64,000 bases of DNA, taken from Nitrospira sp. GTDB taxonomy: Bacteria > Nitrospirota > Nitrospiria > Nitrospirales > Nitrospiraceae. Where the stretch lies: the NCBI GenBank assembly GCA_024998565.1, contig JACOEM010000006.1, positions 186,001 to 250,000 on the forward strand. The letters are read 5' to 3'. The position numbers and the translations under genes were made by a program. Below are positions 1,646-16,199 of the stretch, one piece after another. The notes beneath the pieces are model-generated. The model was not told the origin of the DNA. It worked only from the letters and a program-made list of their open reading frames with translations, and searched no databases. The stretch's first letter is position 1; the number at the start of each line of letters is the position of its first letter.

Positions 1646-4600
1646 TTAGGTCAGAATCGCATGTGATGTTGCCGCATGATCGAGTACCTGCTGAATGTGC
1701 ACCTCGACCTGCCTGAGCACCGACGGAGAAACGGCATAGCCGTCGCTCTCGTAGGTCAGAATGGGCATACCCTGCTGGTTACTGAGCGGTTTTAGAATGG
1801 CCTCTGAAATCCGGAAGGGGAGGCAGTTGAACGGCCCGATGAGGATCAGTCCGTCATACCCTTCGCGGGCGGCATCGAGTCCCTTGCCGATGGTGGGCAG
1901 GAGTTCGCCCCAGATCGTGCGGGACACATGCTCGGCGCCCTTGTGAAAGACAGTGGCGGCGGCGTTCGGCCCTGCTACCAGGAGGCCGGTTTTCTGAAAC
2001 AGCCCGCGGTAATGTTCCTCCACACCCCGCAACATCTGATGCCCGGCCCATTGCTGCAGGTACCGTCGGCCTTCCGGCTCAAAGATTCTGGTGCAGGCTT
2101 TGGCCATGGCGAAGCCGCCCGGTTCCACTCCCCACTGCTTCGCAGTGGAGGCCATCTCGTCATAGGTGAAGTAGAGGAACAGATCACTCAGATCGACCGG
2201 CTTGAGGATGATGCCTCGCTCGGCATAGCGGTCGCGTACCCCGTCCATGAAAAACGAACTGAACCGGGTGAAGAAATCGCCGGCCACCACGACCCGCGGG
2301 CAGGTCAACGGATCTTTGAGTCGCGGGATTGCCGCCACGCGATCGATGAAGGCAGGCAACGTGGCATGAAATTCCTCCACCGACCGCGCATCCTCCACGA
2401 AGTGTTGCCACTCCTCCTTCAAGTGCTCGATGCTTCCTGGACTACCCACGACACGCAGGACATGGTCGATTTCCACCAGGATGTCTCCGATGACGATGGC
2501 CGGAGAGAAGGCCCGTGTCAGGCGTTCCTTGTCGAAACCGAGATACTGATTCTCCTCACGGGGATCGAAGAGGAAGACGTCGGCCAATCGCTGCTCGGTG
2601 ATGAACCGTTCCAAATAGCCCATGTAGGAATCACTCACGCAGGGGGCTCCGCCCCGCAGCATATAGAAGCCCGCAACCTCCTCGGGACGACGCTGCTCGC
2701 TGACCTGAAGCAGTTGCCCGATACAGATCGGCAACGGCAGACATTCGCGGCCGGATGTGTATTGGAGGCCCCGGTCGAGCTGCCCGCGGTTCAGTGGCAG
2801 GATGAGTCCGGGATGTAACCCGAGCCAGCGGGAAGCCATGGTGACTGCCTGGGTGTGGTACGGGGAAAAGTTCGGGAAATAGATCCTGACCTGCGGGTCT
2901 GTCAGTCGTACTTGCTCCCCGTTGGAACGGACGATCCGGCCTTCCGGGAGCAGCCGGCAGGCGGTGAACGACTCGCTGGGGCGATGGTGCTTGTCCTGGT
3001 AGTTGCCGATGATGTCGAGGAAGGCCTCCAGCCTGGTTTGGACACCGGCATCGGCGGTGTGCGCGTCGATCTCCAGAATCAGATAGGGTTTCGATCCCAT
3101 TTCGGAGGCGAGGGTGGCATGGGTAAAGGCATCGATGGTGCAACTGAAGTTGCTCACGCTCAGCAGGAACAGATTGGGATGCTGCTTGGCGATCGCCACA
3201 GCATTTAAAATCTGGTTCGCGAAGTGCCAGGACGTGGGACCTTCGCCGACGGGTAACAGACAGTCGGCGGGGATCACCGACACACCCATGCTGGAGAGTT
3301 TCTTGCTCACTGATTGCGAGGCTTCCGGCGTGAAGGCATTGTAGCTGTGACCGGCCAGGAGAATGGCAGGTTTGCCCGCCGAGACGGCGGCTTCAAGCGC
3401 CTGCCGTCCCAGCTCACAGAGCCTGCGTTCGGCGTCAGTCTGGGCATGGACCGCCGCCACCCAGGCGTTCTCGGCCACATCACGTGTGATCCCGAACTCC
3501 TGCACGACCGTGTCGATCAGGGCGGAGCAGCCTTCGTACCCGTTGGTGAAATCCAGCACGGGCGAGAGTAGCCGGCTGCCTGGAAAGGCTTTGGCCAAAA
3601 AATAGGGCTCCGCCTGGGTGATCGGGCAGAGGTACGAATCCCGGCAGTGATTCGGGTGAGGCATGCGCACCACATGCGGGATGAAGATGAGTTCGACTCC
3701 TCGACGCGTGAGATCGAGCACGGCCCCGTGGGCGATCTGCGCAGGGAAGCAGAATCCTGAGTTGGACGTGAGATCGCCTCGCGGGTCCACGTCCGAGAGC
3801 AGCACTTCCATGCCCAGGTGCGCAAAGAAGGTGGAATAGAGCGGAAACAGGGAATGGGTGGTCAGCGCCCTGGGAATGCCGATGCGTGTGCCGTTGGCCA
3901 CTGCGTTGGCGGTGGGGTGGCCTAAGGATTCACGCACGAAGGCTTTTGCGCTTTCATACGCCGGTCCGACTCCCCAGCGCTGACGCTCGACCCGCTCGTG
4001 CTGAGGTGTGGCGGCAGGCGGAAGGCTCGGGACTTGAAAGAGAACCTCGGCTCTCGTCTCGACCAGGTCTGTCACGGCGGCAGTGCGGGCCTTTCGTTTC
4101 CACACATTCTCGTAGAGGCTGCAACGGCCGCCGAAGGGAAAGCGGCGTCCCGCGACCATGAACCGGTCGATGCTGCAATACATCTTGCAGGCCCCACAGG
4201 TGAAGCGGCCGACCAATTGCATCTCCGGCCGGCTCAGCGTGAGGAGGTCGGCGGGAGGGCTCATCCGCGAGCCGGATCGCTTCAACGCGAGTAATCCGAC
4301 TCCGAGCGCTCCGAGCAATTCAGGGCTGGGCGGGATGACCACATCGCGGCCGACACTGTGGGCGAAGGCATAACCGACGGCGTGGTTGAGTGCGACGCCG
4401 CCTTGCAGAAAGACCTTCTTGCCCACGTAGCGTGGGCCCTTCACGCGGTTGAGATAGTTGCCGGCGATGGCATAGACCAGGCCCGCCACGATGTTGTCGC
4501 GAGGGTGGCCCTTCTGTTGGGCCAGCCGAATATCGCTATTGATGAAGGCGGCGCAGGTCGCCTTAAAATGCACGGGAGAGGGCGCGGCGATCGCCAGACC

Positions 4601-5899
4601 GGCGATGTCGGCGACGGTAATCCCGAGATCGCTCTGGGCGCTTTCTTCCAGGAACGATCCGGTGCCGGCCGAGCAGGCGTTGTTCATCGCATAGTCGATG
4701 GGCACGCCGTTGCGCAGGTAGATGTATTTGGAATCCTGCCCGCCGATCTCAAAAATCGTGTCCACATCCGGGTCGAAATGGGTCGCCCCCGCCGCATGGG
4801 CAGAAATCTCGTTATAGACATGTTCGGTGCCGAGATAGGCGCCGGCCAGCTCACGGGCTGAGCCGGTCGTGCCGACCAATCCGATCGGGCGGTTCCCGAC
4901 CGCATCGACGAGGGCTTGAAGGCATTCCCTGGTGGCTGCGACGGGATTTCCCTTTGTGCGCCCGTAATGGGATGCCACCACCTTGTGTGTCATGGGATCG
5001 AGCAGAATCGCCTTGGTCGTCGTCGAGCCGGCGTCGACGCCGAGGACCAGTGGTCCGTCTGGTGGTGCCTGCAAGGGTGGCGTGGCGATCACGTGCACCC
5101 GTTCGCCGTACTGATGGAGCGGCGGGAGATGGCCCAACTCCGGCTGCGCCGCGAGTTTAGGCAATCGTTCGTGGGGTTCGTCCCGGGTGAGCAGGGCGGT
5201 TCCCCAGGCCTCGAACCAGGGACTCTCGGGGAGAACCACAAACTCGGTCTGTGGGAGCTTGGCGCGCAGCGCGGCCAGCATCGCATCGTTGTGTGTGACG
5301 CCGCCGATCAGCAACACTCGTTTCGGCGCCTGTACGCCTTTTTCCAGCAGCGCGATCACTTTGTTGGCCATGCTGTCGTGGAGCGTATGCAGAACGTCTT
5401 CGGGCGTGGCCTCATTGCGGTTCAGCTTGTGCGTGATGTCCGATTTGCAGTGGACTGAACAGCGTGAGGCCAGCGGCACGACCTTGCCGTCGAACGACCG
5501 GCGGACCGCTTCCTCCATGCCCAAGCCCATCCGGCTGATCTGCTGCACGAAAAACTCGCCGCTTCCGGCCGCACATTTATTGTGAGACAGGACGTTGGTC
5601 AGTCTTCCGTCGACGAGCAAGTAGACCAGAAACGATTCCCCGCCGAGTGAGGCCACCGCATCGAACGTGCCCTCCACCTCGCGAAGCGCCCGCTGAATCG
5701 CCGCCACTTCGGGGACATGGCCGAGCTGGCCGGAGACCCCGAAATATTCCGCGTCGGCAAAGTCCGGTCGGGCCAGCACTTCGGTGAAGACTTCCAGCGG
5801 ACGGCCTTGGTGGGCCACGACCGTCGCATTTCTGGCGTCGCCGCGGATGGCCGCCACCTTCACCGTGAGGGCGCCGATGTTGATACCGACGTACGACAT
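1646..5899 (-). CDS. Acyl-CoA dehydratase activase-related protein (double BcrAD/BadFG ATPase plus DUF2229/HgdB-like region)
   Basis: 1417 residues. I start it at the ATG preceded by GAGGTGA with 6-base spacing; a GTG 63 codons further upstream keeps the frame open but adds a segment without family character. Order of parts: a first ASKHA-type ATPase (about 1-240, with CAAGSG at 109-114), a second one (about 285-560) with the phosphate loop DAGSTTTK at 289-296 and NACSAGTGSF around Cys409, the cysteine loop that holds the bridging [4Fe-4S] cluster in 2-hydroxyacyl-CoA dehydratase activators, then a cysteine-rich linker (FTCGACKMYC) and a long DUF2229/HgdB-like region. Activators use ATP to pump one electron into the dehydratase. 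In this fused family the substrate is unknown. It is long but of the usual size for the fused family. No separate dehydratase subunits are nearby. Confidence 0.85.
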   Translation of the reverse strand: MSYVGINIGALTVKVAAIRGDARNATVVAHQGRPLEVFTEVLARPDFADAEYFGVSGQLGHVPEVAAIQRALREVEGTFDAVASLGGESFLVYLLVDGRLTNVLSHNKCAAGSGEFFVQQISRMGLGMEEAVRRSFDGKVVPLASRCSVHCKSDITHKLNRNEATPEDVLHTLHDSMANKVIALLEKGVQAPKRVLLIGGVTHNDAMLAALRAKLPQTEFVVLPESPWFEAWGTALLTRDEPHERLPKLAAQPELGHLPPLHQYGERVHVIATPPLQAPPDGPLVLGVDAGSTTTKAILLDPMTHKVVASHYGRTKGNPVAATRECLQALVDAVGNRPIGLVGTTGSARELAGAYLGTEHVYNEISAHAAGATHFDPDVDTIFEIGGQDSKYIYLRNGVPIDYAMNNACSAGTGSFLEESAQSDLGITVADIAGLAIAAPSPVHFKATCAAFINSDIRLAQQKGHPRDNIVAGLVYAIAGNYLNRVKGPRYVGKKVFLQGGVALNHAVGYAFAHSVGRDVVIPPSPELLGALGVGLLALKRSGSRMSPPADLLTLSRPEMQLVGRFTCGACKMYCSIDRFMVAGRRFPFGGRCSLYENVWKRKARTAAVTDLVETRAEVLFQVPSLPPAATPQHERVERQRWGVGPAYESAKAFVRESLGHPTANAVANGTRIGIPRALTTHSLFPLYSTFFAHLGMEVLLSDVDPRGDLTSNSGFCFPAQIAHGAVLDLTRRGVELIFIPHVVRMPHPNHCRDSYLCPITQAEPYFLAKAFPGSRLLSPVLDFTNGYEGCSALIDTVVQEFGITRDVAENAWVAAVHAQTDAERRLCELGRQALEAAVSAGKPAILLAGHSYNAFTPEASQSVSKKLSSMGVSVIPADCLLPVGEGPTSWHFANQILNAVAIAKQHPNLFLLSVSNFSCTIDAFTHATLASEMGSKPYLILEIDAHTADAGVQTRLEAFLDIIGNYQDKHHRPSESFTACRLLPEGRIVRSNGEQVRLTDPQVRIYFPNFSPYHTQAVTMASRWLGLHPGLILPLNRGQLDRGLQYTSGRECLPLPICIGQLLQVSEQRRPEEVAGFYMLRGGAPCVSDSYMGYLERFITEQRLADVFLFDPREENQYLGFDKERLTRAFSPAIVIGDILVEIDHVLRVVGSPGSIEHLKEEWQHFVEDARSVEEFHATLPAFIDRVAAIPRLKDPLTCPRVVVAGDFFTRFSSFFMDGVRDRYAERGIILKPVDLSDLFLYFTYDEMASTAKQWGVEPGGFAMAKACTRIFEPEGRRYLQQWAGHQMLRGVEEHYRGLFQKTGLLVAGPNAAATVFHKGAEHVSRTIWGELLPTIGKGLDAAREGYDGLILIGPFNCLPFRISEAILKPLSNQQGMPILTYESDGYAVSPSVLRQVEVHIQQVLDHAATSHAILT

Positions 5900-6188
5900 G
5901 GAACAGTCACCTCGTAGGATGCAAATCCTTGCTTCTTGTGGAGCGCTATAACCAGGGAGCAGCAAGTCGCATACCTTCGCGCGTGCCTGTCCCCTGCAGG
6001 GATGATAGTCCATAGGAATTTGCATTACCGCGAACCGTAATGTTGTCGAGTCACAGTCCGGGGTGGGGGCGGATACCTCACTGCTCACATCGCGACTGGT
6101 GCGAATCGCGACAGAGGAGGCCGGTGGGGATGGGGAGGGAGAGGGCGAAAACGTGCACGAGCCGCGGCGGCACCACGGCCCCGATCAG

Positions 6189-6908
6189 TCATTCTGCGGG
6201 TAGGTCCTTGAACAGGTCGTCGAGCATGTGGGCCCACAAGCGGCGGGCGATTTCATCGAAGGGAATGCGGAACTCGCGAACGTCCTCACCCGCGAGGGTG
6301 GCTTCACCGGAGGATTCCCAGACGATCTCGCCCGTTCTGGTATCCCACAGTTGCAGGCTCATGCGGAGCATGGTGACGCGGGTTTGCAGGACACGGAGAC
6401 CAAAGAAGGAAAAGCGCCCGGACATGGATTGGTTGAAGGAGGCGAGGCTGGGTTGAAAGACATAGTTGGTGTGAATGGCCTGTCCGATTTTCTGGAGCCC
6501 CGCCCGATTAAGGATACCGGTTCTGACATAGGCGGTCACCATAGCGGCATACTCTTCCCCCAACTCTCCCCGGTTGATGCGGTTCAACGCTTCGTGGACC
6601 GGCAGAGCCGTGATCAGAGTCGGCCGCTGATCCAAGGCACTCGACAGTGAGCGGGAGACCTGATGGGCAAACCCTTCCAATCCGAATCCCACCACCGCGT
6701 TCAGGACGGCAACCTGCTCGTGCTTCAGCGTGGCCGGGTCAAAGGAGGTGGCCTTGGGGCGGAATGTCGTTTCTTCTCCCCACTGTTGCAGAGGCCCGAT
6801 ACAGCCGGCTGACAGCAAGAATCCCGCGAGCAGGAGCACCCATACGACTGATGGCCCCATGCGTCTCACCCGGACGGTTCCCCCCTCTTGCGATGGCGAG
6901 TTCATCAC
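6189..6908 (-). CDS. Outer-membrane-type lipoprotein of unknown function
   Basis: 239 residues from the first ATG; a GTG at codon 12 preceded by GAGGGGGGAA, or the ATG at codon 17, is also possible. The N-terminus carries a type II signal peptide with lipobox LSAGC, and Gly/Ile rather than Asp follows the cysteine, favouring the outer membrane. The rest resembles lipoproteins that assemble a curli/CsgG- or GNA1162-like alpha/beta domain: a regular pattern with RTGILNRAGLQKIGQAI and a late LQLWDTRTGEIVWESSGEA strand pair. That resemblance is a weak impression. The gene is divergent from the small gene at 7207 and stands apart from the long gene downstream. Confidence 0.7.
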   Translation of the reverse strand: MMNSPSQEGGTVRVRRMGPSVVWVLLLAGFLLSAGCIGPLQQWGEETTFRPKATSFDPATLKHEQVAVLNAVVGFGLEGFAHQVSRSLSSALDQRPTLITALPVHEALNRINRGELGEEYAAMVTAYVRTGILNRAGLQKIGQAIHTNYVFQPSLASFNQSMSGRFSFFGLRVLQTRVTMLRMSLQLWDTRTGEIVWESSGEATLAGEDVREFRIPFDEIARRLWAHMLDDLFKDLPAE

Positions 6909-11554: not shown

Positions 11555-11573
11555 GGATTCATCGGTGAGACCG

Positions 11574-11658
11574 ATGCAGATTGCATTGACGGGCGATGTG
11601 ATGCTGGGACGAATGGTGGATCAAGAGGTGATCCGGAACATAGAAGAGATATCCTAGC
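11574..11658 (+). pseudogene. Relic of a capA 5' end (27 codons)
   Basis: From the ATG, 66 bases match the start of the intact capA at 15210-15275 with only 5 differences, three of them synonymous, then similarity ends at once and the frame stops at TAG (11656-11658). The match begins exactly at the start codon and upstream sequences are unrelated. This marks the left edge of the inserted cassette. Confidence 0.85.
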
Positions 11659-11672
11659 GATGTTCAGTCCGA

Positions 11673-12938
11673 TCACTCTCCCTGGTGATTCGTCCTATGC
11701 GACAATCGAAGAGCCTGTGCGAGGGGGTGAAGGAGATAATCATACACTAGCCGGAGTGGCCTGATGAGACCGTAGAGGCAATGAAGCGCTTCGGGGAGTG
11801 AAAGAAAGCTATGGTCCCTGGCGTTAGGGATGAAGAGTCTTTCGAGGAAGCGACGGAGCGGCTCCAGATGATAAGGAAGCTTGTCTCGAAAACGTTCGCG
11901 GAGCTGTGAGTGAAATCGGGCTTGCTCCGATATCGAAACCGGTCGGCATGAACCGGACGCTCTGGCGTATAATTGCACAATAAACTCATTTCGCACCTGT
12001 GCCACAAGCGATGCAATCGACCGGTCATGCCCCACCCGTACTGATATCTCTGCCGGTATCGGAATTCCCAGGAGGTCGTGAGCGAGCGTGAGAGCGAAAG
12101 AAAGAGTTCCTCGCGCTCCGATTCTCGTAGCCTCTGTTAGGAGCCATTCCCAATTCAGCACGGGGTGTTCATGAAGAAATTGAGCAAGATCACACACCTT
12201 CGCTAGCCTAGACCGCTTCTCCCACGCGTCCTTCGCCACTTGCACGCAGAGAATCAGAAGCGAATCCTCGTCGGAAAGAGTGGGGACTAGTTCACCACAG
12301 AGTACCATCTTACTGCGACGTTGCCACAGATTCGAAAACTCAATCGAGTATGGAAAGATACGCGGGGTGAGTCCTTGGTGGAGATCAAGACAGTAACCAC
12401 CGCTTGAACTTATGAAATGCGATTCCCATTCACAATCCGCCGAAAGTTGGAATCCATCTGAAAGAAGAAGTTTCTTTGAACGATCATAGTCACGCCAGTC
12501 AACCAAGATGTCCAGATCGAGGAATTGGCGTAGGTTCAGGCTGCCATAGGCCGAAACTGCGAGCACCGGTCCTTTGTAAGGAATAGCAGCGACCTGGTTA
12601 GACTGAAACAGATTCAGGAGCTGGAGCAGTTCCTGCGCAAGATAGAAGTTTGCCAGGGCATTCGAGCAATAGCGGACCTTCACATAGTCCAGAATATGCT
12701 GAGGCACGACAGTTGAGCCAAGGGAGTGGAGTTGTTTGTAGAGAAGCGGCAGTACACCGTGATTGTGGGAGACAATAATAAGGTCGGACCAGTTCACATC
12801 TTCTCGGATAGAGGCACAAGTCTCGGGTGAGATCTCAGCGTTGAGCGGAGTTCTTGCAAGGTTTAGAAGGATAGCGCTTTCCCCCGATAGGCTGGCCGTA
12901 GGGTTGTCCGCAATTTCTCGGAACTTAACAGTTTTCAT
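11673..12938 (-). CDS. NTP_transf_5-type nucleotidyltransferase family protein
   Basis: 421 residues. The motif AIPYKGPVLAVSAYG (118-132) followed by LRQFLDLDILVD (136-147) is the signature of the uncharacterised nucleotidyltransferase family PF14907, whose two aspartates (here in DLDILVD) would bind metal and NTP. The remaining 270 residues are helical and family-typical. In known RiPP clusters, such as some lasso-peptide loci, proteins of this kind occur next to an HPr-kinase-like protein and are thought to modify the peptide. Here it is the last gene of the minus-strand cassette, 101 bases after the small Tat protein. The substrate is unknown; an exopolysaccharide-related role is an alternative because capA is adjacent. 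Confidence 0.75.
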   Translation of the reverse strand: MKTVKFREIADNPTASLSGESAILLNLARTPLNAEISPETCASIREDVNWSDLIIVSHNHGVLPLLYKQLHSLGSTVVPQHILDYVKVRYCSNALANFYLAQELLQLLNLFQSNQVAAIPYKGPVLAVSAYGSLNLRQFLDLDILVDWRDYDRSKKLLLSDGFQLSADCEWESHFISSSGGYCLDLHQGLTPRIFPYSIEFSNLWQRRSKMVLCGELVPTLSDEDSLLILCVQVAKDAWEKRSRLAKVCDLAQFLHEHPVLNWEWLLTEATRIGARGTLSFALTLAHDLLGIPIPAEISVRVGHDRSIASLVAQVRNEFIVQLYARASGSCRPVSISEQARFHSQLRERFRDKLPYHLEPLRRFLERLFIPNARDHSFLSLPEALHCLYGLIRPLRLVYDYLLHPLAQALRLSHRTNHQGE

Positions 12939-13039
12939 CGAGCCATTCCGTTTGACCCTCGAAGGATACTGCCCGAGGTTGAGCTCTGATTGATTCAGCG
13001 TTGAGCAACAATGGGGCGTATTCTTTAGCGACTAATAGA

Positions 13040-13387
13040 TCAACCTCGAAGCGTAGAGCACGTACCCTGAGTGGTAACTTTACGGCTGCCAAAAATCTTT
13101 CTCAGGTTGTCGAGTAGCTGATCCAAGAGACTCTGCTCACAGGGAGGCCTAATAACCGTAATTTGTCCTTCCGTCACAATGAACTGAGTGCTGTCAACTA
13201 CAGCCGTATCGCCCTTCGTATAGGTTTGAGCGAACGACATAGGAATAGCGGCCCCGCTCAGGACTAGGGCAACGGAAGGGACCGTGATCAGACTGTGCTT
13301 GACGACATGTGAGAGAAAGTGCCGTCGGTTCACTTCTCTGGCAAGCATTGATTGGTCTGGGTTGCTGCTGGTGAGTTGGTCAGTCAT
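13040..13387 (-). CDS. Small protein with twin-arginine signal, possible substrate of the cassette
   Basis: 115 residues, with GAGGAG as ribosome site. Residues 1-53 look like a Tat signal: NRRHFL at 20-25, then the hydrophobic stretch LITVPSVALVLSGAA and a cleavage point near SFA. The mature part of about 62 residues has two cysteines (83 and 110) and the hydrophilic ending TTQGTCSTLRG rich in Thr/Ser. I know no family for it. It sits between the PqqD-HprK fusion and the nucleotidyltransferase, the position a peptide substrate would have. The folded-export signal is unusual for a peptide precursor, so it may instead be an exported partner protein. Confidence 0.6.
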   Translation of the reverse strand: MTDQLTSSNPDQSMLAREVNRRHFLSHVVKHSLITVPSVALVLSGAAIPMSFAQTYTKGDTAVVDSTQFIVTEGQITVIRPPCEQSLLDQLLDNLRKIFGSRKVTTQGTCSTLRG

Positions 13388-13505
13388 AACTAATGCTCCT
13401 CGTGGGAGTGAGTATTGGGTCTACTGTGATTTACTTGGCACCTCTCCAGAATCGCTAAGACAAGGTCCTCTTCATTTTTGTCCTGTGCTAAGCAACAGCC
13501 AGTGG

Positions 13506-14735
13506 TTAGGGTGTCAGCTTGTTCATGAGTCGCACCGCCTCCTTAAGGTTAGAGTTGGGGAGTAGATAACCATCGATGGTCCTGATCCACTCGACAATCC
13601 GCGAGACCGCTGCCTGGTTGAGACGCTCCGGCAGGCTCAGACATTGCGCGAAGAGTCGTTGGAGAACCTCAACTCTGGGCAATGGTTGCAACTTGCTCTG
13701 AGCTGCTGGGTTATAGGCCGGAAAGACTATCCAGCGAACCTTATGCCCTTCCGGCCGATCAGGCCCTCTACTTTCAGGAGGTGGAGACAAGTAACGGATG
13801 TGCTTCCCGTCTTCCCGGAGATGGACCGTGGCCTGGTCCAGTTCTGGATAGTAAGGAGCCAGCACCGGCCAAGCTCCTTCTTTGGTTGCCATGGCGATCG
13901 GTATTGGCTGCACACGGAGTTCATTTCCTTCTAATGGCGCGCACTCGTCAGACAGATAATGCCAGCCATCATGGACTAGACCCGCAACGAGGCACGTCTT
14001 ACCACTACCGGATTCAGCTGGTAGCACGACACACTGGCCCTCACGTTCGACTACACCTCCGTGAATTTGGAATCGATAAGGGTGATCGTTCAATGCAATG
14101 CGCATCATGCAACATTTAACGGCAGGACCAAGACCGCTGAGGGTCTCGCAAAGTTCTTCCAGGGTACCATCTTGAAGAACTGCGTATCCCTTTTGGGTTT
14201 GAGCCAGGACCAACTCCGTACTGTAGAGGGTAATTCCATCACTCTCCAGGTGAGCAAGAATCGGATGAACCATGGCCTCCTGTGCGGCGCTGTCGTAACC
14301 AATGGTGAACAGTGTCCGCCGAAGTCGGTAGCTCCTCTGGCTGTGACGTTGCCGCTGGTCTACTTGGAGGTCAACCTGCGGCAGCGACCTCGCGGGGGGG
14401 CTCGTGAGAACGGGCCTGTTGCACTCGCTTCCACTAAGTAAACCGAGCGCCCACCATTGCCCGACTAGGTTGATGACCGTGTCTTGGGTCTGTTCGGGGG
14501 GGCTGTCGGTTATTTCAGCGAGTTCGGCTGCGATCGCTGCCACAGGGAGCCCGTCCTCCATGGCCATCCAGATCCATGTCGCGGATGTGTTGAACGCATA
14601 GATTTCCTGGCGACCCTCGCAGAAGACAACCCCTGCTTCATCCAAAGCGAAAAGATGGCAATCGGAAGCCTGGCGACAGGGACTCTCCAAGAAGTATTGG
14701 GTATGATCTATACGGGGTGCAGAAGTGAATGTCAT
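13506..14735 (-). CDS. PqqD-like domain fused to HPr-kinase-like P-loop domain
   Basis: 409 residues; ATG preceded by AAAAGG. Residues about 25-102 match the PqqD/RRE wing-helix fold (LDEAGVVFCEGRQEIYAFN, ATWIWMAMEDG, then helices ending GLL), the fold that binds leader peptides in RiPP pathways. Residues about 215-400 are an HPr-kinase/serine kinase-like domain: P-loop AESGSGKT at 240-247 and LSDE at 261-264 in the place of the usual Ser-Asp-Asp. Fused kinase-PqqD proteins are found in lasso-peptide-like and polysaccharide gene clusters and can phosphorylate a peptide. It is first in the minus-strand cassette. No lasso cyclase, B2 protease or exporter follows, so the pathway is either incomplete or different. 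Confidence 0.78.
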   Translation of the reverse strand: MTFTSAPRIDHTQYFLESPCRQASDCHLFALDEAGVVFCEGRQEIYAFNTSATWIWMAMEDGLPVAAIAAELAEITDSPPEQTQDTVINLVGQWWALGLLSGSECNRPVLTSPPARSLPQVDLQVDQRQRHSQRSYRLRRTLFTIGYDSAAQEAMVHPILAHLESDGITLYSTELVLAQTQKGYAVLQDGTLEELCETLSGLGPAVKCCMMRIALNDHPYRFQIHGGVVEREGQCVVLPAESGSGKTCLVAGLVHDGWHYLSDECAPLEGNELRVQPIPIAMATKEGAWPVLAPYYPELDQATVHLREDGKHIRYLSPPPESRGPDRPEGHKVRWIVFPAYNPAAQSKLQPLPRVEVLQRLFAQCLSLPERLNQAAVSRIVEWIRTIDGYLLPNSNLKEAVRLMNKLTP

Positions 14736-15209
14736 ATAGGGAGCCTTTTTGCGGGAGGCACGGTGTTACTTTTGTCGAACGCAAGAGTGATGCCGTTTTT
14801 CGGGAATGCCCGATAGGAATCCAACCACGAATGAGCGTTGACGGGAGTCTCTGTTCCACCGAGTCCTACACCTTTGCAGACGAGACTCGAAGCGCGCGTA
14901 AGTGCTCTTGCGCTACGTGTCTGATCGTGCCCACGATTGATAGACGAGAACGTGTGCGGAGCATCCTCAAACAGAGACTATGTAAGCTAGTGCAGGAGAT
15001 AGCGTGCCTAGGGTTCTTGAGTGAGAAATGGGGAGATTCTCCACAAGGTCTCATGGATTAGTTGTTGCGAAAAGCCGCAGCTGCCAATGAGTGTAGCAAA
15101 GGGGATGCAGTAGCCGGCAACCGCTAGGCAAGTTGCTGGCACCAGGATTGCGGTAGTCGTTCGCAAGAAGTCTTGGCTTTGTCGAAAAATCCCCACCGCA
15201 GGAGCACAG
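14736..15209. other. 474-base non-coding stretch at the cassette edge
   Basis: Short open frames exist on both strands (for example a 62-codon hydrophobic one at 15008-15196 on the minus strand) but none has a ribosome site. The region presumably holds the promoter of the PqqD-HprK gene and the junction with the host. No peptide precursor, repeat or terminator was recognised. Confidence 0.5.
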
Positions 15210-16199
15210 ATGCAACTTGCATTGACCGGCGATGTGATGCTGGGACGGATGGTGGATCAAGAGGTGATCGGGAACCAGTCCCTCTGGCCTGAGGCCGTCT
15301 GGGGCGATGTGTTGCCGATCCTGCTTGCGGCGGACCTGCGTGTCATCAACCTGGAATGCGTCATCAGCGCACGCGGGCGAGAATGGCATCCGCAATCGAA
15401 AGCGTTCCATTTCCGTGCCCACCCGAGAGCGATCGACTGTCTCAAGTCGGCAAGCATTGATGCGGTGACGTTAGCCAACAACCATGTCCTCGATTACGGG
15501 GCGGAGGCCTTGCTCGATTGCCTTGGACTGCTCGATCGGGCCGGCATCAGGCATGCGGGGGCCGGCCGGAACCTGGCGGCAGCGATGGAGCCGGCGTTCC
15601 TTCCGGTAGCAAGAGGTGGGGTTGCAGTGCTGGCGCTGACCGACAATGAGCCGGAATGGGAGGCCGCCGATGTCAAGCCGGGAGTCGTCTATGTGGCCTA
15701 CGACCATAGGGGGCTCAAGGAGCCCTATCGAGCGCGTGTGGCGGACGCGATCAAACGAGCCCGGAGTCAAGCCGGTCTTGTCTTGGTCAGCGCCCACGTC
15801 GGACCTAACTGGGGTGCGCCGTCAGTCGAGATGCGGGCGCTTGCTCGGGAGCTGCTTGATCTGGGAGCCGATTTCTATTGGGGACATTCCAATCACACGC
15901 CTCAAGGGATCGAACTCTACCGTGGGAAGGCGATTCTGTATTCGAGCGGCGATTTCATCGACGACTACATGGTGGATGAGCATGAACGCAACGATCTATC
16001 GTTCCTGTTCGTCCTTAACGTGGAGCCAGGCCGTGTCGCGCACATTCGGCTTCATCCCGTTCGCATTGAGCATTGTCGCGTGAGGCTCGCCCGGCATCAG
16101 GACGCCCTGTTTCTCCAGAAAACCATGCAGGCCAAGTGCGCCGCGCTGGGCACGCCCATCGCGTTTCACGACGGCGTCGGCTCAGTGATCATCGGATGA
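15210..16199 (+). CDS. CapA-family poly-gamma-glutamate synthesis-like metallophosphatase protein
   Basis: 329 residues; ATG with GGAG at the right distance. The CapA/PgsA metallophosphatase-like fold is complete: LTGDVMLGR (metal-site motif) at the start, NLECVIS, ANNHVLDYG, then SAHVGPNWG, GHSNHTPQGIELY and YSSGDFIDDY. CapA proteins take part in capsular poly-gamma-glutamate synthesis, though many members have other or unknown roles; there are no capB/capC genes here. No signal peptide is visible, so it may be cytoplasmic. The first 66 bases are duplicated at 11574, which shows that the cassette was inserted at this gene. Its present promoter lies in cassette-derived sequence. Confidence 0.85.
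   Translation: MQLALTGDVMLGRMVDQEVIGNQSLWPEAVWGDVLPILLAADLRVINLECVISARGREWHPQSKAFHFRAHPRAIDCLKSASIDAVTLANNHVLDYGAEALLDCLGLLDRAGIRHAGAGRNLAAAMEPAFLPVARGGVAVLALTDNEPEWEAADVKPGVVYVAYDHRGLKEPYRARVADAIKRARSQAGLVLVSAHVGPNWGAPSVEMRALARELLDLGADFYWGHSNHTPQGIELYRGKAILYSSGDFIDDYMVDEHERNDLSFLFVLNVEPGRVAHIRLHPVRIEHCRVRLARHQDALFLQKTMQAKCAALGTPIAFHDGVGSVIIG

Follow-up and report, generated by a model that had tools for sequence, protein, structure and literature searches.

Linear polyphosphorylated peptides (LPPs), described by Popov et al. 2026 as restricted to Bacillota, carry several phosphates that the HprK-like kinase LppK adds to Ser3 of the core (PMC13381572). LPP and lasso systems produce ribosomally synthesized and post-translationally modified peptides (RiPPs), and in both the RiPP recognition element (RRE) binds the motif [Y/W]xxPx[L/V/I/F/A] in the leader (PMC13381572). 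In the case of pseudomycoidin, a nucleotidyltransferase puts one or two hexoses on the phosphate, giving a phosphoglycosylated product (PMC8498205). Here we analyse a three-gene cassette which, by published features, is neither an LPP nor a lasso cluster, and which appears to work like both. It lies in a 64,000-nucleotide stretch, called here the window, of a Nitrospira-like genome (G000, contig C6; GenBank assembly GCA_024998565.1, contig JACOEM010000006.1, positions 186,001 to 250,000). It encodes a fusion of a PqqD domain with an HprK-type kinase, a small protein with a twin-arginine translocation (Tat) signal, P0002, and an NTP_transf_5 enzyme, P0001. With a probability of roughly two in three, the cassette is a unit for the modification and export of a small protein, in which the Tat signal peptide serves as the leader for RiPP-like tailoring. 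The gene content, the conserved association of the genes, a leader motif, the absence of a B2 peptidase and the insertion site have all been observed.

The three genes are read on the minus strand in the order fusion, small protein, NTP_transf_5 enzyme, and are separated by intergenic spacers of 118 and 101 bp. The evidence for each feature is given in brackets (dN/dS is the ratio of non-synonymous to synonymous substitution rates).

13506–14735, minus: PqqD (RRE)–HprK-type kinase fusion, 409 aa (Pfam PqqD; NCBIfam HprK_rel_A; profile matches; dN/dS)
14436–14627, minus: PqqD/RRE domain, residues 37–100 of the fusion (Pfam PF05402, E 8.3e-9)
13515–14075, minus: HprK-like kinase domain, residues 221–407 of the fusion (NCBIfam HprK_rel_A; alignment of 16 fusions)
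13040–13387, minus: Tat-signal small protein P0002, 115 aa, with Cys83 and Cys110, the likely substrate (sequence; leader profile; leader motif)
13229–13387, minus: predicted Tat signal peptide, residues 1–53 of P0002, ending in SFA and leaving the mature N terminus Q-T-Y (sequence)
13313–13327, minus: twin-arginine motif RRHFL of P0002 (sequence)
13271–13288, minus: ITVPSV, RRE-docking-type motif of P0002, with Pro as the 17th residue from the first Arg (motif comparison; motif definition of PMC13381572)
11673–12938, minus: NTP_transf_5 nucleotidyltransferase-fold enzyme P0001, 421 aa, with a KG...DLD motif (Pfam)

Like the LPP clusters, the cassette combines an RRE, an HprK-like kinase and an NTP transferase, has no macrolactam cyclase, and encodes a small precursor that is variable towards its C terminus and whose conserved leader contains a YxxPx-type docking motif. 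LPPs are phosphorylated close to the N terminus of the core, and we propose the same for the cassette. However, the RRE of the LPP systems is discrete, whereas that of the cassette is fused to the kinase, and the SpI-like peptidase LppS and the MsbA-like exporter LppD have no counterpart as dedicated protease and exporter among the flanking genes scanned here. The LPP precursor leader reads YxxPxVLxHQxIxFETxxS, while P0002 has only ITVPSV, within its Tat signal. No Tat signal has been reported for the LPPs of Bacillota, in contrast to the Tat-signal leaders of the cassette type, which is found in Alphaproteobacteria and Nitrospirota. Since its RRE is not discrete, LppS and LppD are lacking and the leader is different, the cassette stands outside the LPP clusters. 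With paeninodin and pseudomycoidin (PMC8498205) it shares the HprK-like kinase, the nucleotidyltransferase acting afterwards and the PqqD-type B1 protein, but it has no lasso cyclase, no B2 and no lasso-type precursor, and its kinase and B1 are fused.

A further likeness is to the RiPPs modified by multinuclear non-haem iron-dependent oxidative enzymes (MNIOs), namely the bufferins and DybA (PMC12452194, PMC12636315), whose precursors are modified in the cytoplasm and carry a general export signal. There, the enzymes are iron oxidases and the signals are of the Sec or lipoprotein type, unlike the kinase, NTP_transf_5 enzyme and Tat signal of the cassette; the word "Tat" is absent from the texts of both papers. 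The literature describes signal peptides as rare in RiPP precursors, and they are of these same two types. A Tat-signal substrate of an RRE-kinase is undescribed in the papers searched, which cover the literature in part and so give no proof of novelty. The initial annotation of this stretch, made from the DNA letters, had suggested a new modification system. The pairing of such enzymes with a Tat leader is absent from the papers searched; the cassette is not wholly new because LPP and paeninodin/pseudomycoidin systems use the same kinase and NTP-transferase pair.

All three genes are present where that annotation had put them (11673–14735, minus strand), as open reading frames (ORFs) and family scans agree, and its view of the first product as a leader-binding fold joined to a kinase is upheld. 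The Pfam scan places PqqD at residues 37–100 (E 8.3e-9) and the NCBIfam scan places HprK_rel_A (TIGR04352) at residues 221–407 (E 5e-29), with a score of 101 bits that lies below the equivalog cut-off of 200, so that the kinase is related to that family and is no equivalog. A PDB search with a profile of 16 fusions retrieved lasso B1/PqqD proteins (TfuB1, 2.2e-9) and HPr kinases (3tqf, 8.7e-5); PDB searches from single sequences gave no match. Across the 16 aligned fusions, H225, the Walker A sequence GSGKT (243–247), D263 and K285 are kept, position 247 being T or S. In the kinase tree, the fusions of the window and of its sole close relative, G010, group in a single clade with those of Alphaproteobacteria (support 99/97), apart from the split kinases of Nitrospirota. 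The third product, P0001, matches NTP_transf_5 over residues 47–291 (E 2.2e-57), well above the gathering cut-off of the family (PF14907; 194.9 against 31.2 bits), and its KG...DLD nucleotidyltransferase motif is intact. Between the window and G010, dN/dS is 0.22 for the fusion and 0.37 for the NTP_transf_5 gene, values that indicate purifying selection.

The small protein P0002 has no family in Pfam or NCBIfam. A clear GAGGAG precedes its ATG, and when the gap that holds it was shuffled 2000 times, an ATG ORF of its length came up in 15 cases. As had been noted at the outset, it carries a twin-arginine signal and two Cys residues: RRHFL is followed by a hydrophobic stretch and a likely cleavage site after SFA, with Cys83 and Cys110 beyond. 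P0002 thus has the RRxFL motif, hydrophobic core and cleavage site of a Tat substrate, and its genome encodes a Tat translocon (two matches to TatC). Near the mature start, P0002 has Thr and Tyr at +2 and +3 (T55 and Y56); the aligned alphaproteobacterial cases have Ser at +2. In another genome, G026, a match to P0002 (E 0.009) contains one stop. The small Tat proteins of other Nitrospirota (L107–L110; L164, 6321–6557) terminate in a conserved segment that contains two paired Cys residues and closes with Trp, e.g., CNSFVEKVFNPSCW. Homology of P0002 to these C...C-Trp proteins is suggestive by eye and in alignment, but reaches E 3.4 when P0002 is left out of the profile; since this is not significant, we do not claim it.

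The docking motif of the lasso and LPP leaders recurs inside these Tat signals in the form (hydrophobic)xxPx(hydrophobic), at a fixed spacing from RR. It reads YVLPIV, YVIPTV, YTIPAM, YVLPLA, YIVPLV and YMLPVV in the Nitrospirota relatives, YTAPVL in Methylobacterium, VTPPAV and similar in rhizobia, and ITVPSV in the window. Counting the first Arg of RR as residue 1, Pro stands at position 17 in 20 of the 22 distinct substrates compared and in none of the 47 distinct control Tat signals from Nitrospirota. The p value of 2e-15 for this difference is an overstatement, because the sequences compared are related to one another and some of those from Alphaproteobacteria had been gathered by a filter requiring the leader Pro. 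The first six alphaproteobacterial cases and P0002, which were selected without that filter, all fit the motif. When a leader profile built from alphaproteobacterial proteins only was run against 5536 ORFs, P0002 scored 14.7 bits (E 0.005), against 7.5 bits for the best control Tat signal, and all ORFs ranked above P0002, as well as the next below, are Tat proteins of kinase loci.

Outside Nitrospirota, relatives were sought by tblastn of the fusion against plasmids, and the sample there consists of plasmid records only. Full-length relatives were found in Ensifer, Sinorhizobium, Rhizobium, Novosphingobium, Leisingera and others. In the Sinorhizobium cassette (L058), kinase, NTP_transf_5 enzyme and Tat protein are encoded at 3623–4723, 4710–5792 and 5995–6306, respectively. 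A short Tat-signal protein lies within 2.5 kb of the fusion at 15 of 16 alphaproteobacterial plasmid loci (one is frameshifted), and NTP_transf_5 likewise accompanies it at 15 of these 16, which include near relatives and are not an independent sample. The Methylosinus locus has neither. Four other Nitrospirota genomes (family f32) have PqqD, HprK, a Tat protein of about 75 aa and NTP_transf_5, which is the gene order of the window. Kinase, NTP_transf_5 enzyme and small Tat protein thus recur in Alphaproteobacteria and in two parts of Nitrospirota, and a Tat-type small protein beside PqqD–HprK fusions, which the initial annotation had named as a check, is what was found at both the plasmid loci and the four Nitrospirota operons. 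Leader and position are common to the small proteins of the different groups; the mature parts have diverged too far to reveal sequence homology between groups.

Orphan Tat proteins with the same leader, distant from the kinase, are encoded on Sinorhizobium pSymB and chromosome, and in genome G257. This fits a leader-guided enzyme that would act in trans. Several of the Sinorhizobium meliloti orphans (L057, L059, L063, L226) have GWGNG or Gly-rich mature parts, and G257 (L166, 1314–7342) encodes PqqD and a 605-aa HprK-like protein within a glycosyltransferase cluster. In Ensifer adhaerens Casida A (L065, 5007–7220), the cassette is decaying: a truncated kinase lacks the PqqD half, and a frameshift interrupts the Tat gene.

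The lack of a cyclase, protease and exporter, also pointed out initially, is confirmed among the flanking genes scanned. Family scans of these genes detected no macrolactam cyclase of the asparagine synthetase-like kind, no B2-type peptidase and no dedicated exporter; Pfam scans showed no SpI-like leader peptidase and no MsbA-like exporter, with the genome-wide S26 peptidases left unscanned. The nearest ABC gene is SufC-like and stands beside SufD. The only good Transglut_core3 (B2) match of the genome is on another contig, C16, next to a different, split cassette. B2 is the leader peptidase carried by lasso-like clusters that contain the same kinase, while none was found at the alphaproteobacterial or Nitrospirota loci with a Tat protein: where a locus was long enough for a call, the Tat protein occurred without B2 in 20 cases and B2 without the Tat protein in 10, and the two were never found together. 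With neither cyclase nor B2 among the flanking genes scanned, a lasso cluster is rejected as a reading of the cassette. Should the leader be a Tat signal, signal peptidase and the Tat translocon would make any dedicated protease or exporter unnecessary.

On this basis, we infer the binding, phosphorylation, extension and export steps, together with the acceptor residue and the function, as follows. The PqqD domain of the fusion would bind the Tat signal through ITVPSV in its hydrophobic core, and the HprK-type kinase would then phosphorylate a hydroxyl residue near the mature start, with T55 and Y56 (mature +2 and +3) as candidates. Docking on, and phosphorylation by, a fused kinase are proposed by analogy with LPP (LppK) and pseudomycoidin. 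The NTP_transf_5 enzyme would extend the phosphate, most likely with a sugar and less likely with a nucleotide, and the modified protein would be exported by the general Tat translocon, its leader being cut by an ordinary signal peptidase. The initial annotation had spoken of phosphorylation or nucleotidylation of an exported protein; the comparative tests favour a modified exported protein, but nucleotidylation is less probable than an extension of the phosphate, given the hexose in pseudomycoidin.

Several observations weigh against this proposal. LppK takes Ser and refuses Thr and Tyr (PMC13381572), which are the residues of P0002 at +2 and +3, and LppN gave no detectable product in the published test (PMC13381572). 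The docking motif of P0002 begins with Ile where its Nitrospirota relatives have Tyr, and the motif comparison is subject to the filtering and relatedness noted above. The small proteins vary greatly in their mature parts, which cannot be aligned across groups, the small gene falls in a contig gap of G010, and structure predictions of P0001 (from a single sequence) and P0003 (from two) reached a mean pLDDT (predicted local distance difference test) of 35.

These points have to be set beside other explanations. The fusion could be a chaperone that binds the Tat signal and spends ATP on holding back or proofreading the small protein, with no covalent modification. PqqD-type domains are peptide chaperones, and a leader motif within the Tat hydrophobic core would suit such a role; we nevertheless regard it as unlikely, as NTP_transf_5 travels with the kinase at nearly all the alphaproteobacterial loci, the HprK-specific catalytic residues are kept, and the characterised relatives are kinases. 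Alternatively, the mature small protein could be a secreted, bacteriocin-like natural product, a Gram-negative relative of LPPs and lasso peptides, which would be modified by the same mechanism and would differ in role from a structural or functional envelope protein. The enzyme set is that of lasso and LPP clusters, the distribution is patchy with horizontal transfer, and the variable mature parts would be in keeping with such a product. Yet the flanking genes scanned include no immunity gene or dedicated exporter, Tat export alone ends in the periplasm, and several substrates are Gly/Lys-rich proteins with mature parts of up to about 95 residues, so that an antagonistic function seems doubtful.

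The weak homology of P0002, at E 3.4 to the Nitrospirota family and E 0.005 to the alphaproteobacterial leader, would be expected if the Tat protein were a chance neighbour, unrelated to a kinase/NTP_transf_5 pair that acts on another target. Against this, which we hold to be quite improbable, stand the recurrence at many loci without B2, the same gene order in other Nitrospirota and the motif's absence from the control signals. Least probable is a decaying insert without present function: the low-G+C insertion, the capA remnant (see below) and the fate of the Casida A locus are what such decay would look like, but here the three frames are intact, both enzyme genes have low dN/dS between the two species, and the catalytic residues are kept.

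Modification guided by a leader is normally considered apart from Tat export. Beyond the reading of the cassette as a modification and export unit, we lean towards a wider one, in which it represents a widespread, undescribed class in Gram-negative phyla. Its exported small proteins would be phosphorylated or phosphoglycosylated by an RRE-kinase and an NTP_transf_5 enzyme that recognise the Tat signal; a single peptide would be both RiPP leader and export signal, and the general route through Tat and signal peptidase would replace the RiPP protease and exporter. A group of small "hypothetical" proteins of rhizobia, roseobacters, Nitrospira and their relatives could then be predicted to be modified and exported, NTP_transf_5, a poorly understood family, would gain a natural substrate to assay, and it would be explained why these clusters are without the protease and exporter that genome-mining tools for RiPPs search for.

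The insertion site was recovered by comparison with empty sites in two genomes of the same genus, G019 (L172) and G023 (L171).

11640–15205, no strand: full length of the insert, with about 53% G+C where the flanks have about 60% (empty site in both genomes)
11570–11639, plus: left 70-bp direct repeat, a remnant of the start of capA (empty-site comparison)
15206–15275, plus: right 70-bp direct repeat, the start of the intact capA (15210–16199) (empty-site comparison)

In G019, the two flanks of the cassette adjoin each other and share 70 bp; in the window, these 70 bp, which are the start of capA, are present on both sides of an insert of about 3.57 kb. The cassette is a horizontally acquired, low-G+C insert in capA with a 70-bp duplication. 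A search of viral contigs returned no relative, and a search of genome contigs returned only one relative of the same genus with the fusion, a Nitrospira metagenome-assembled genome. In G010, the left junction is the same as in the window, the fusion is 72% identical, and capA, intact in the window, has decayed. CapA was considered as an MslH-type epimerase partner and rejected, since it scores 97.5 bits where the cut-off is 700; capA is the resident neighbour that was interrupted.

The split cassette on contig C16 (L042, 8955–12612) is genus-wide and comprises a B2-like Transglut_core3 protein, PqqD, an HprK_rel_A-like kinase and NTP_transf_5. It sits between pur genes and a thioredoxin-like gene, no cyclase was recognised in it, and the set is lasso-like. 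PqqD, kinase and NTP_transf_5 follow the order of the window, but PqqD is unfused, Transglut_core3 takes the place of the Tat protein, and the kinase falls outside the Tat/fusion clade. In G384 (L112, 3758–8092), PqqD, HprK, Transglut_core3, NTP_transf_5 and an ABC transporter-like gene stand in a row and probably form a lasso-type cluster with phosphorylation in this member of Nitrospirota. As read from the sequence, genes of PqqD-like, radical SAM-like, HprK-like and NTP_transf_5 type lie together in two closed genomes of the genus to which the window belongs (L047, 9108–14655; L048, 4496–10089), possibly another peptide-modification locus.

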